Shown here piece after piece: positions 17,225 through 22,162 of a stretch of 64,000 nt of DNA; positions within the stretch are counted from its first letter, which is position 1, and each line of letters starts with the position of its first letter. The DNA comes from an uncultured Pelagibacteraceae bacterium. Its GTDB lineage: Bacteria > Pseudomonadota > Alphaproteobacteria > Pelagibacterales > Pelagibacteraceae. Both the position numbers and the translations under genes were made by a program. The notes beneath the pieces were generated by a model that worked only from the letters and a program-made list of their open reading frames with translations, had not been told where the DNA came from and made no database searches. The stretch spans positions 1 to 64,000 of the forward strand of contig CACNRP010000002.1 in NCBI GenBank assembly GCA_902622955.1. Reading direction: 5' to 3'.

Positions 17225-17291
17225 GATGTTATATGCTGTTTATGTAAAAACTTAATAATAACACTACCAATTAATTTTAATTTTAAACCAA

Positions 17292-18572
17292 TTACTCATC
17301 TGTAGAAATTATTTTATGACTTACTAATAGGTCAACTAAATCATATAATTCCCAAGTTGGTACGTTCAACTGCTCTGCAATTTCTATAAGTGAGGAACTA
17401 CCATCGCATAGACTAATAAAATTCATCATTAATATAATATCCTTTTGAGGAGTTTTGGTTGAAAGACTTGGATAGAGTCCACGTTTGCCCATTTGGGGTT
17501 CACCCATGACGCTAACTTTATATTTTTTATTCTTTTCGATTATTTCTAAAGAACGACGCAATGCCCAATAACCACCATTTAAACCTTGGGGTGTAACTAC
17601 ATTAATCAAATCATCTAAAGAAGTATGAGACTCCGGATATTCTCCATATTTCGTCCTCATTATTGTTGCAATTGGAAGATCTATTCCTGGAGCACAATAT
17701 TGTCTTTCATCACTTCCACGATCCAACCATGAATAGCTATGAAAATTTGGATCAGTCCATTTAAGAACATGCTTTGCTACTAAATCACTTATCGTGTTAC
17801 CATTACGTGAAGGTAGGTAGGAATAAGCTCGGTCATCACCAACACAGCTTACGTTAAAACCTGCTACAATTTTTTTTTTCATTTCCTCATGATTTAAACT
17901 TAGATAAGTTATAGATCCAATTGTTTCTGGAATAAAAATTATACGATATGAATAATTCAGAGATTTAAGCTGAGTTAACCACTGCGCGAGAAAAGTTACA
18001 ACTGTAGGACCAGATAATTCATTGTTTGCCATTGAAGGATGACATACATAAGTACTGATAAAAACTTCTTCTTTATTTTTTCCTTTAATTAATAATTCTG
18101 CAAAATTAAGAACTCCATCGAATAACTTTGTATTAATATAAACCTTGTATTTTCCTTCCTCAAGATTATCGTATTGCTGTTGGGATAAACAGAATCCCCA
18201 TCTCTCTTTATAATAACTCGTTAAATATGGTATTGCGTTAGGCTGATCTGGCAATGTGTATAAATGTTTTTTGAGTTCATCTAAGCCAAGCTCTCCTTTA
18301 AAAGGAGTGCTATAGCCTAATAAATGAAGATTATTTTCCTTAAAATCACATATTTTTTTACCATTAGGTGTAATTAGATATGCATCATGAACTATCCATT
18401 CTTTAGGCACAGTCCAATCAAAAACTTTAGTGTTAGAAGCTACAGAATGAATTTCTACATTTGGTAAAATTTTTTTTATTTCATTCAGAGTTTGTCTAAC
18501 ACCTTCCCCTGTAATACTCCTATTTATTGGCCACAATTTATGAGCAAAATCGTGAATATCTTTTCCTATCAT
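17292..18572 (-). CDS. DUF4910/DUF2172-type aminopeptidase-like protein (M28-like) with C-terminal winged-helix-like part
   Basis: LWPINRSITGEGVRQTL, STYVCHPSMANNELSGP, IIFIPETIGS, SDERQYCAPGIDLP, GEYPESHTSLDDL motifs. Confidence 0.8.
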   Translation of the reverse strand: MIGKDIHDFAHKLWPINRSITGEGVRQTLNEIKKILPNVEIHSVASNTKVFDWTVPKEWIVHDAYLITPNGKKICDFKENNLHLLGYSTPFKGELGLDELKKHLYTLPDQPNAIPYLTSYYKERWGFCLSQQQYDNLEEGKYKVYINTKLFDGVLNFAELLIKGKNKEEVFISTYVCHPSMANNELSGPTVVTFLAQWLTQLKSLNYSYRIIFIPETIGSITYLSLNHEEMKKKIVAGFNVSCVGDDRAYSYLPSRNGNTISDLVAKHVLKWTDPNFHSYSWLDRGSDERQYCAPGIDLPIATIMRTKYGEYPESHTSLDDLINVVTPQGLNGGYWALRRSLEIIEKNKKYKVSVMGEPQMGKRGLYPSLSTKTPQKDIILMMNFISLCDGSSSLIEIAEQLNVPTWELYDLVDLLVSHKIISTDE

Positions 18573-19450
18573 ATTGATTTTTTTAAAAATATTTTTAATT
18601 TATTAATTAAATCATTTGTAGTTTTAATTTCAAGAATTATATGATCACCGCTCACAACTAGAATACTATCCTTGTTGTGTTCAATTACACTTCCTGGAGG
18701 CATATCACTTGATTTAAGATTACGAACAGCTTTTATAATTGGAATTCCTTTTATACAAGTTTGAAAAGCGGGAGGTTTAAATGGATGAAAATTACTTGCT
18801 CTAATACTACTTTCAATCTCGATTGCTGGTTTACTCCAGTCAATTTCCTTATTATATGGATTAGCTTTTTTGTAAATACGTGATAAATAGAAAGATTGAT
18901 TTTTTTTTGGAATATCTTTTTTTTTACAAATCAAAAACAAAGTTTTTCTCATAGCTTTGATTCCTGCTTTTAGACATTTTTGATAAACGCTCAATCCTGT
19001 GTCAGAATTAGTAATATCAAATCTCTCCTCAAGAATTATTTTGCCACCATCAACTTTTGGAGTCATAAAATGAATAGTAGAACCAAATTCTTTCTCATTA
19101 TTATTAACTGCCCATTGATAACAATATAAACCAGCGTAAGTAGGTAAAATTCCTGGATGATAATTTATAGCTTTATCATTAAAAACATTTAACACTTCTT
19201 TTGATATTATTTTTTTATTATCAGCACTTACTAACCAGGTATTTTTATCTACAATTTTTAAAAAATATTTTAAATCTAAATTAATATGATTGGAATTTTT
19301 TACGTTAAATGGGCCCTCATGTCGTTTTTCATCTTTTATATTATCTACATAAATCGCTTTTATTTTCCCTCCCAAATTAACAATTTCATCAATTGTTGAT
19401 CCAAGAATTAAGCCAGAGCCTATAACAACAAATGATGGTGTTAAATTCAT
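18569..19450 (-). CDS. Formyltransferase-family protein (Fmt/ArnA-like, probably not initiator-tRNA Fmt)
   Basis: INYHPGILPTYAGLYCYQWAV...GSTIHFMTPKVDGGKI keeps the N/H/D catalytic positions; Fmt-C-like IDWSKPAIEIESSIRASNFHPF. Confidence 0.78.
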   Translation of the reverse strand: MNLTPSFVVIGSGLILGSTIDEIVNLGGKIKAIYVDNIKDEKRHEGPFNVKNSNHINLDLKYFLKIVDKNTWLVSADNKKIISKEVLNVFNDKAINYHPGILPTYAGLYCYQWAVNNNEKEFGSTIHFMTPKVDGGKIILEERFDITNSDTGLSVYQKCLKAGIKAMRKTLFLICKKKDIPKKNQSFYLSRIYKKANPYNKEIDWSKPAIEIESSIRASNFHPFKPPAFQTCIKGIPIIKAVRNLKSSDMPPGSVIEHNKDSILVVSGDHIILEIKTTNDLINKLKIFLKKSI

Positions 19451-19454
19451 TTTG

Positions 19455-19694
19455 CTATTTTTTATTGATTACAGTTAAAATTTCACTTATCGTTGTGAGG
19501 CTATCAGGTGGAGTTTTATCAAAGTCAAAATCTTTGTTAGATTTTTCACTAATTATTACTAATAATTCAATAAATGCAAAACTGTCCAATAAACAATGTT
19601 CAAAAAGATTATCTGATTCTTTTAAATTAATTAAAACCTTTTCTGATATTAAAAATTTTGTACGTAGAATTTTTTTTATTTCATCACTATTCAT
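19455..19694 (-). CDS. Free-standing acyl/peptidyl carrier protein
   Basis: 79 aa with LLDSFAFIELLVII around a candidate phosphopantetheine Ser, helical acidic profile, beside an adenylation gene. Confidence 0.75.
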   Translation of the reverse strand: MNSDEIKKILRTKFLISEKVLINLKESDNLFEHCLLDSFAFIELLVIISEKSNKDFDFDKTPPDSLTTISEILTVINKK

Positions 19695-19698
19695 TATG

Positions 19699-20463
19699 TC
19701 ATCTATCTATAAGCCAATTTAAATTCTTATCTAGTTCATCATTGAGAATTTTAATAAAATCTACTGCTTTAAATGTTTTAATGTACCCGTATGAAAATTT
19801 TTCAATAAATATTTTGCCATTTTTTTGCAAAATAGGCTCTATTTTGGTTAAATTTGGACTTGGATTTATGTCTAAATTTCTAACAAACATACCATACTTT
19901 TTTTTTTTAATATTTTTATCCTCATCAATGTAATCGCCCTCGAATTCTTTCCAGTATCTATAAGGAACATTAAACTGTTCTTCAGCTAGATGGACAAAAG
20001 AAACAGCTTGAATAGAAGCGCCTAGCAAAATAATTTGGGTATCTAGATTTAACATTTTTTCAAAAGCACTCTCGTGTCCAAACGCACTATATGTATCTTT
20101 TGAACATATTTCTTTTGCATCTTTACCAATTACGCAAACTGATTGAAGAGGATGTTTTGATCGAACTGATAGATCTAATTTTCTAACAAATTCAGAGAAT
20201 CCACCCATGCCTTCAGAAGGTGTATTTTTTATGTCATAAGTTTTTCCTTTAGTAAATTGAAAATTAAATGTAGGAACTATAATATTACCCGAAATACCTG
20301 TTTTTTTATCCAGTGCTTCTAATAATTCATAAGAAAAATTAGTAGGATTAATATCTTTTGCCGCTCCAAATGAATGAAGTGCTGAGTGAATAAAAATTGA
20401 ATTACCTCTTTCAAATTTTAAATTTTGGATTTTTTTAATTAGATCTTTTATGTGATAAAACAT
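19699..20463 (-). CDS. AAC(3)-family (Antibiotic_NAT fold) N-acyltransferase
   Basis: SIFIHSALHSFGA, IIVPTFNFQFTKG, SKHPLQSVCVIG, FGHESAFEKML, IILLGASIQAVSFVHLAEEQFNVPYR. Confidence 0.8.
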   Translation of the reverse strand: MFYHIKDLIKKIQNLKFERGNSIFIHSALHSFGAAKDINPTNFSYELLEALDKKTGISGNIIVPTFNFQFTKGKTYDIKNTPSEGMGGFSEFVRKLDLSVRSKHPLQSVCVIGKDAKEICSKDTYSAFGHESAFEKMLNLDTQIILLGASIQAVSFVHLAEEQFNVPYRYWKEFEGDYIDEDKNIKKKKYGMFVRNLDINPSPNLTKIEPILQKNGKIFIEKFSYGYIKTFKAVDFIKILNDELDKNLNWLIDR

Positions 20464-21973
20464 TATTTAGTTCTTTTCTCAATATTTTTGTATCAACTTT
20501 TCCACTGTGGTTAAGTGGAATTTTTAAAATATTAATTATTTTTCTAGGTATCATGTAATCGGGCAAGACTTTTTTCAATTTTTTTCTGATTTCGTACTCT
20601 TCAAACTTAAATTGTGTTTCCACAAATGAATATAGTGAATCTCCAAATTTAGTATTTTGGTTTATCGTATAAATTATTGCATTTTGAATTAATTTTCCTA
20701 ATTCCAAATTTATTTCTTCTAATTCTACACGATTACCATTAATTTTTACCTGATTATCTTTTCGAGCGACATAAAATATATCGTCATTTTCTATTTCAAT
20801 AAGATCACCAGTCTTGTAACAGTAAATACCTTTACTGCTTGAGAATACTTCTGCCGATTTACTAACATTATTCCAATATTTTTTTGTAACTTGTGGTCCT
20901 TTTAAAATAAGTTCATTTTTAATTGTTTTAATTTCATGGTTGTCAAAAATTTTTCCTATGGATACGATACCATATTTACTTTTAATATCATTTTGATTTG
21001 ATGGTAATTTATAACTTGTAATTGCGATCGTTGACTCTGTAGGTCCATAAAGATTATAAATTTCACTATTTGTTGCAGCTTTCATCCAATTTTTTGCCCC
21101 ATCTAAATTTAAAGCCTCTCCACAAAACAATGAAAATTGAATATCTGGGAATGTATTTGGTGTTAATAATCTAAGTTGATGAAGTAAAGAAATCTGAGAT
21201 GGAACAGAAAACCATACTTCTATTTTTTTTTCTTTTATAAACTTTGCGGGAGAAAACATTTGTCTTTCTGGAATAGGAATTAAAGTGCCAGCATTTTTCC
21301 AACACACAAAAATATCATGAATACTCAAATCAAAGGTTAATGGGAAAACTTGAGAAAATTTTAATTTACTTGCAAATTTTATACGTTTTTCTAAATTATT
21401 TAGGTAAGAAATCAAATTACTATGACTAATTGGTACCCCTTTAGGATTTCCAGTGCTTCCAGAAGTAAATAACAAATAAGCAAAAGAGTCGCCTCTTAAC
21501 TCTTTAACTTTTGGTGAGTGAAAGTCTTTAATTTGATTTAAACTAATAATCTTTATATTTGGAAGCTGTATCTTAATGTCATTTGAAATATCAGTTTCTG
21601 TTATTGCAATAGTACCATTTTTTAATTTTTTAAGAAAGCTTATAGCTTGTTCAAAATAATCTTTTGACACTATAATGGTGTCTGCTCTAGCTTCACAAAA
21701 TACGCTCACTTGTCTCTTTACTGGCAACTGATTACCAATTGGACAATAGATTTTTCCACTACTAAGTATTCCTATAATTGCGCTGTATGTTGTTACAGAT
21801 TTATTACCAAATACTGCAACTACATCTGCTTGACTAAAACGCTCAACATAAGCCTGAATTTTTTTTACAATTTTAACAATATCTTTATATTTATAAATTA
21901 ATCCATCTATATCTAACGCAGGTTCATTAGGAAAATTTTCACTTGTTTTCCAGAATACTTCTGTGCAATTCAT
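20435..21973 (-). CDS. AMP-dependent synthetase / amino-acid adenylation enzyme (DltA/NRPS A-domain-like)
   Basis: YLLFTSGSTGNPKGVPISH (A3), FDLSIHDIF, NLYGPTEST (A5), YKTGDL (A7), ARKDNQVKINGNRVELEEI (A8), NHSGKVD (A10). Confidence 0.85.
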   Translation of the reverse strand: MNCTEVFWKTSENFPNEPALDIDGLIYKYKDIVKIVKKIQAYVERFSQADVVAVFGNKSVTTYSAIIGILSSGKIYCPIGNQLPVKRQVSVFCEARADTIIVSKDYFEQAISFLKKLKNGTIAITETDISNDIKIQLPNIKIISLNQIKDFHSPKVKELRGDSFAYLLFTSGSTGNPKGVPISHSNLISYLNNLEKRIKFASKLKFSQVFPLTFDLSIHDIFVCWKNAGTLIPIPERQMFSPAKFIKEKKIEVWFSVPSQISLLHQLRLLTPNTFPDIQFSLFCGEALNLDGAKNWMKAATNSEIYNLYGPTESTIAITSYKLPSNQNDIKSKYGIVSIGKIFDNHEIKTIKNELILKGPQVTKKYWNNVSKSAEVFSSSKGIYCYKTGDLIEIENDDIFYVARKDNQVKINGNRVELEEINLELGKLIQNAIIYTINQNTKFGDSLYSFVETQFKFEEYEIRKKLKKVLPDYMIPRKIINILKIPLNHSGKVDTKILRKELNNVLSHKRSN

Positions 21974-22162
21974 ATCTTTAAATTTTTTCTATTTTTAGTC
22001 ATTTATATTTTTATAACTTAATTTATTAATTTTATATTAAGACAATATTTAAATTTAGTTTTATAAAAATTAATGTCGTAATTCCAACAATATTTATCTA
22101 AAACCAATATTTTTAATCTTATAGTCTGTGACTATTTATTTAAAAATAAAAAGAAAATTTAC

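Follow-up and report, generated by a model that had tools for sequence, protein, structure and literature searches.

What would five tightly packed genes, for an adenylation enzyme, a small carrier protein, two transferases and a protein of the DUF4910 family, be doing among the housekeeping genes of a SAR11 bacterium? They lie between lpdA and priA in a 64,000-nt stretch of DNA (the window) from an uncultured Pelagibacteraceae bacterium (GenBank assembly GCA_902622955.1, contig CACNRP010000002.1, positions 1 to 64,000). On balance, we favour the view that this cassette is a carrier-protein module that puts a small amino acid on an amino sugar at the surface, with a nonulosonic acid of the pseudaminic or legionaminic type as the likeliest acceptor. 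The five genes and the borders of the segment that carries them are:

20435..21973, minus strand: gene for a stand-alone adenylation domain (A-domain), AlmE/DltA-like, 512 aa
19699..20463, minus strand: gene for an N-acyltransferase of the AAC(3)/FrbF fold, 254 aa
19455..19694, minus strand: gene for a predicted discrete acyl/peptidyl carrier protein (ACP), 79 aa
18569..19450, minus strand: gene for a 10-formyl-tetrahydrofolate-dependent N-formyltransferase, C-terminal domain present, 293 aa
17292..18572, minus strand: DUF4910+DUF2172+HTH_47 gene (PIRSF015244, the Cj1295/CA_C2195 family), 426 aa
21974..22162, minus strand: upstream insertion border, lpdA stop to A-domain start, AT-rich, 189 nt, putative promoter region
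17225..17291, minus strand: downstream insertion border, DUF4910 to priA, 67 nt

An earlier sequence-only reading of the window had described five packed same-strand open reading frames between housekeeping genes, and it had them right in position, strand and flanks (lpdA after a 189-nt gap, priA after a 67-nt gap). Its family calls for the four larger proteins also have clear Pfam and NCBIfam support. The A-domain and AAC(3)-like genes overlap by 29 nt (20435-20463), the formyltransferase and DUF4910 genes by 4 nt (18569-18572), and the ACP gene stands 4 nt from its neighbor on either side. An antisense frame at 19432-19722 (plus strand) is taken as a reverse-strand artefact. The comparison of lpdA-priA across SAR11 that the same reading had proposed is informative: the two genes are ~22 bp apart in 20 of the related Pelagibacter genomes examined, the majority state among relatives showing both, versus 4.9 kb in the window. 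Thus, these 4.9 kb form a discrete insertion, as opposed to a set of chance open reading frames, and its base composition differs just slightly from that of its flanks.

The DUF4910 protein matches the Pfam models DUF4910 (E-value 1.9e-96), DUF2172 (3.8e-39) and HTH_47 (3e-20), and has the same three-domain architecture as the solved structure of CA_C2195 (3k9t_A; phmmer 7.9e-103, 348 bits). The sequence-only reading had pointed to a resemblance to M28 peptidases; H178 and H316 of the metal site are kept, but the M28 catalytic residues are missing. We rejected an active M28 peptidase, given that HPS and PE replace the catalytic Asp and Glu sites and that Asn replaces a Zn-ligand Asp (see also PMC4000134): where 3K9T has Asp195, all 23 aligned sequences from the window protein's clade have Asn (Asn184), with a second invariant Asn adjoining. 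The reaction may therefore not be simple hydrolysis. Two papers, which place Cj1295 and CA_C2195 in one family (PMC3068675, PMC4000134), point to what it could be instead. Das et al. 2014 solved CA_C2195, noted that it lacks the peptidase residues, and suggested that it works on modified surface carbohydrates, perhaps by transacylation (PMC4000134). Hitchen et al. 2010 showed that a Campylobacter jejuni Cj1295 knockout loses 5-N-(2,3-di-O-methylglyceroyl) pseudaminic acid; Cj1295 is needed to swap the 5-N-acetyl of pseudaminic acid for dimethylglyceroyl, and the proposal is that it strips the 5-acetamido acyl group, letting another take its place (PMC3068675). The next gene, Cj1296/7, is annotated as an aminoglycoside N3'-acetyltransferase (PMC3025981). 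From this analysis, DUF4910 is probably linked to N-acyl exchange on a sugar, and not to the proofreading step earlier suggested for it. Nor is the system, earlier put forward as a candidate for an undescribed one, wholly undescribed, when one of its proteins has both a knockout phenotype and a published surface-carbohydrate proposal (PMC3068675, PMC4000134). Separately, contigs labelled Prochlorococcus (L093, L159) carry DUF4910 genes that share 53-69% identity with the one in the window.

Does DUF4910 keep the same company in other genomes? We compared 296 other genomes of Pelagibacterales, each from a different species. DUF4910 is present in 27 of the 33 that carry AAC(3), versus 30 of the 263 that lack AAC(3) (odds ratio 35; p 5e-17 by Fisher's test, with no correction for relatedness). 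The two genes are on the same contig in 22 of those 27 genomes, and less than 10 kb apart in 19 of the 22. A second set consists of 74 DUF4910 loci from other genomes across phyla, which are the best-scoring ones from a genome-wide scan, and not a random sample. Here AAC(3) is found within 10 kb at 42/74 loci and within three genes at 39/74; Pse or nonulosonate genes are within 10 kb at 39/74, and carrier proteins at 23/74. On the other hand, close copies of all five genes are found in no other genome of the 297 Pelagibacterales. One SAR11 genome, AG-447-M19 (L090), groups divergent members of all five families in its rRNA-linked region, with pseB and a NeuB-like gene as neighbors. Thus, of the five-family co-occurrence that the earlier reading wanted checked, the DUF4910-AAC(3) pairing is strong and the exact five-gene set is rare. 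In scans of viral contigs, a DUF4910 query found one locus (34% identity), and formyltransferase and A-domain queries found zero relatives.

Across the loci compared, the loading enzyme varies while DUF4910-AAC(3)-ACP persists. The loader is FkbH at L056, at L047 and in Aeromonas, with fused forms on Sinorhizobium and Maritalea plasmids; it is an acyl ligase at L043, L103 and in Vibrio coralliilyticus (L135), whose genes run pseF-x-pseG-pseI-x-ligase-x-x-ACP-AAC(3)-DUF4910-pseH; and it is an A-domain at L054 (AAC(3)-A-ACP-DUF4910) and on a Solidesulfovibrio plasmid (L067). The order ligase-AAC(3)-ACP at L062 matches that of the window, and on a plasmid from Agrobacterium, AAC(3) and DUF4910 stand next to pseBCFGIH. 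This recurrence of Pse and nonulosonate genes near DUF4910, together with the phenotype of the Cj1295 knockout, is why we favour an acceptor of the nonulosonate type. The earlier suggestion, that the AAC(3)-fold enzyme would hand a carrier-bound amino acid to an amine on a sugar or surface glycan, is well supported by co-occurrence, gene context and the Cj1295 literature. The acceptors then named were an amino sugar, a surface glycan or a small metabolite; a sugar or glycan amine stands, and a nonulosonic acid, which is narrower, is the best supported.

Which acyl group would be moved? The A-domain (Pfam AMP-binding, 7.5e-45) matches the NCBIfam models of DltA at 1e-78 to 1e-80, which is under their cut-off (263 bits vs. 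560), and its best PDB match is AlmE (4oxi, 2.5e-61). Its ten-residue pocket code, read from the alignment, is D-L-H-F-L-C-L-I-A-K, and that of AlmE is DLHLFCLIAK: by sequence only, 8/10 residues are equal and the other two swap Leu and Phe. The substrate of AlmE is glycine, although the enzyme can also misactivate D-alanine (PMC12930378). With Asp at its alpha-amino position, the code speaks for an alpha-amino acid, and all this taken together predicts glycine or alanine as the substrate. A-domains at other SAR11 loci carry different pocket codes, which is consistent with different acyl groups. A Solidesulfovibrio plasmid (L067:11992-15563) carries an A-domain, an ACP, a 241-aa protein of unknown family and AAC(3) (A-ACP-x-AAC(3)), and that A-domain has the identical ten-residue code at 34% overall identity. 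As for the 79-aa protein, Pfam yields nothing at E 0.001, and NCBIfam gives weak matches to AmcB (3.7e-5) and DltC (3e-4; 20.7 bits vs. a cut-off of 68). These matches, its length, and a D37-S38 motif that is intact and conserved in the alignment, with S38 in LDSF as the putative phosphopantetheine site, support calling it a carrier protein.

The AAC(3)-like enzyme (Antibiotic_NAT, 3.8e-32) keeps H158 and E161, and its predicted structure (pLDDT 94) has AAC(3)-IVa, FrbF and BA2930 as top fold matches. It scores below the cut-off for AAC(3) aminoglycoside-resistance enzymes (66 bits vs. 270), even though the fold and the His/Glu pair are common to both. The formyltransferase (Formyl_trans_N 1.3e-21, Formyl_trans_C 1.4e-8) has an intact N-H-D catalytic site (N96, H98, D134). 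Its best sequence matches are FdtF, QdtF and ArnA, with the LgrA formylation domain among the weaker ones. Its predicted structure (pLDDT 70) matches ArnA, FdtF, QdtF and Met-tRNA formyltransferases alike, and so its substrate is not readable from the fold. With just two weak matches in Pelagibacterales, neither of them in a genome that matches DUF4910, it was also rejected as a stand-alone marker of the cassette.

A candidate pathway can be put together from these parts. The A-domain would adenylate glycine or alanine and load it on the phosphopantetheine of the ACP. DUF4910 would free the amine of the sugar or help the exchange of its N-acetyl group, as in the proposal for Cj1295, and the AAC(3)-fold enzyme would then acylate that amine with the aminoacyl group taken from the ACP. 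The formyltransferase would add a formyl group to a free amine, be it the one on the newly attached aminoacyl group or a different amine of the sugar. Synthesis of the acceptor sugar would be encoded at another place in the genome, probably the rRNA-linked hypervariable region, and the product would leave the cell with the surface polysaccharide.

The insertion site itself carries glycan genes in some relatives. The lpdA-priA junction (17225-22162 in the window) is a hotspot of cargo in Pelagibacter (loci L199-L205, L208 and L210). In genome G298 (L200:2171-8110) it holds two aminotransferases, two epimerases, a glycosyltransferase and WbqC, and in G312 (L201:9648-12841) an aminotransferase, an epimerase and a third gene; the aminotransferases of both are of the DegT type. 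Other relatives have an FkbM methyltransferase (G302), a sulfotransferase (G321), PhyH (G322), a cupin resembling a dimethylsulfoniopropionate lyase (G026), a 1531-aa helicase (G301), or a block with a weak integrase match (G324). The genes differ from relative to relative, and thus the cassette is cargo at a variable site that sometimes houses amino-sugar genes. With the nucleotide-sugar aminotransferase and epimerase genes of G298 and G312, the junction can be a second place for glycan genes, away from the rRNA-linked region. The other neighbors in the window read as housekeeping genes, such as those of ATP synthase and the tricarboxylic acid cycle, and a comparison of glycan reference proteins to the rest of the window gave a single weak ligase match and nothing else.

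Several observations weigh against the transfer of an aminoacyl group to a nonulosonic acid. No sugar-biosynthesis gene, glycosyltransferase or exporter is recognized beside the cassette, the formyltransferase is seldom found with the other four families, AAC(3) is absent within 10 kb at 32/74 DUF4910 loci, and the Asn in place of the Zn-ligand Asp leaves amide hydrolysis unassured. What does the rest of the genome offer? The assembly is 67% complete, and our conclusions about it come from targeted searches of that incomplete assembly. On the favourable side, it has one NeuB-like gene, though a partial one, abutting a run of N (a contig gap) beside the rRNA operon and followed by a GNAT gene. 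A strong DegT aminotransferase and a PseB homologue were not found in it, and neither was a phosphopantetheinyl transferase, for which incompleteness is the probable cause. Since every cell that uses carrier proteins is expected to have that enzyme, these absences tell us little. A second AAC(3)-like gene on contig C18 (L082:1154-1933), 41% identical over the match, precedes a large exported-looking protein; we rejected this paralogue as part of the cassette because ACP, A-domain and DUF4910 are all absent nearby.

How else could the five genes be read? The same aminoacyl-ACP transfer might be aimed at the nucleoside-diphosphate (NDP)-4-amino (or 3-amino) sugar of an ordinary O-antigen, with DUF4910 acting there and the formyltransferase formylating a second amino sugar, like ArnA, FdtF or QdtF. 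These are the enzymes nearest to the formyltransferase in sequence and fold, G298 and G312 have DegT aminotransferases and epimerases at lpdA-priA, and about half of the DUF4910 loci are without a Pse or nonulosonate gene within 10 kb. Still, the sole genetic evidence on DUF4910 concerns pseudaminic acid (PMC3068675), and it is nonulosonate synthases or Pse genes that recur beside it, which makes the O-antigen sugar an unlikely acceptor, if one to be taken seriously.

An improbable alternative is that the product is not a surface sugar at all, and is instead a small diffusible N-formyl-aminoacyl metabolite such as a siderophore, a signal or an antibiotic. A discrete A-domain and ACP do look like stand-alone starter units of a nonribosomal peptide synthetase, and the ACP weakly matches the cispentacin ACP AmcB. 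The linear gramicidin synthetase LgrA, whose formylation domain is among the weaker formyltransferase matches, formylates a carrier-bound amino acid. But the five proteins have no Pfam match to a condensation domain or a thioesterase, in agreement with the earlier judgement that this is not a classical nonribosomal peptide synthetase; no exporter or receptor is recognized alongside, and the DUF4910 and AAC(3) homologues sit in glycan clusters. Even harder to credit is aminoacylation of the hydroxyls of lipid A or another envelope polymer, changing surface charge in the manner of AlmEFG or Dlt. AlmE is the best PDB match of the A-domain with a near-identical pocket code, and the ACP is weakly DltC-like, but none of the five genes is an AlmG-type lipid A acyltransferase, a DltB or a DltD, and the transferase that is present has an N-acyltransferase fold (Antibiotic_NAT). 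We know of no AlmEFG or Dlt system that includes DUF4910 or a formyltransferase. That this is not a Dlt system had been said from the sequence, and the sub-threshold DltA and DltC scores bear it out.

We thus return to N-acyl exchange on nonulosonic acids around DUF4910, a known if poorly characterised kind of system, to which we assign the cassette. The gene families and the idea are known; the aminoacyl-plus-formyl composition and the housekeeping location are new, and no paper on such an enzyme set came up when the literature was searched for an acyl-carrier or adenylation step in the acylation of nonulosonates. A bolder generalization, which we would sooner doubt than assert, makes one widespread interchangeable module of DUF4910, an AAC(3)-fold transferase and a discrete carrier, its task being to rewrite nonulosonic-acid N-acyl groups. 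The plugged-in loader would set the chemistry (glyceroyl with FkbH, amino acids with A-domains, or an acyl ligase as the third kind of loader), DUF4910 would be a sugar N-deacylase or transacylase, and the SAR11 cassette would be the N-formyl-aminoacyl form. On our main reading, the cassette would tie a domain of unknown function from many phyla to a concrete, testable step in the synthesis of unusual sialic-acid-like sugars, and would account for the presence of AAC(3) "antibiotic resistance" homologues in clusters of glycan genes. A further suggestion is that SAR11, which ranks with the most abundant marine bacteria, alters its surface by swapping small cassettes for acyl loading, and does so at a second site as well, beyond the classical hypervariable region; this variation may bear on phage recognition.

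How does the cassette compare with known systems? From DltABCD it has the combination of a stand-alone aminoacyl A-domain and a small carrier protein; it differs in scoring under the DltA and DltC cut-offs, in the absence of DltB and DltD, and in its transferase. AlmEFG of Vibrio cholerae has the closest solved A-domain, and shares with the cassette a glycine-type code and a discrete carrier, but while AlmG puts glycine onto an acyl chain of lipid A, SAR11 has an AAC(3)-fold N-acyltransferase, DUF4910 and a formyltransferase. The sugar N-formyltransferases ArnA, FdtF, QdtF and PseJ have the same Formyl_trans_N fold and N-H-D site, the first three being closest, whereas the window enzyme resembles Met-tRNA formyltransferase folds almost as closely. 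CA_C2195 shares the architecture of the DUF4910 protein and differs from its clade in the Asp-to-Asn ligand. The Cj1295-Cj1296/7 pair of the Campylobacter jejuni flagellin glycan joins a DUF4910/PIRSF015244 protein to an adjacent AAC(3)-annotated acyltransferase, and exchanges an N-acyl group on an amino sugar, as we propose for SAR11. There the acyl group is a glyceroyl, as opposed to the predicted aminoacyl group; the genes sit among pse and flagellin genes, and the SAR11 cassette sits alone among housekeeping genes; and an A-domain and a formyltransferase, both in the SAR11 cassette, are not reported (PMC3068675, PMC3025981). Most likely, then, the SAR11 cassette is the amino-acid version of a sugar-decorating pathway known just in outline from the flagella of Campylobacter.

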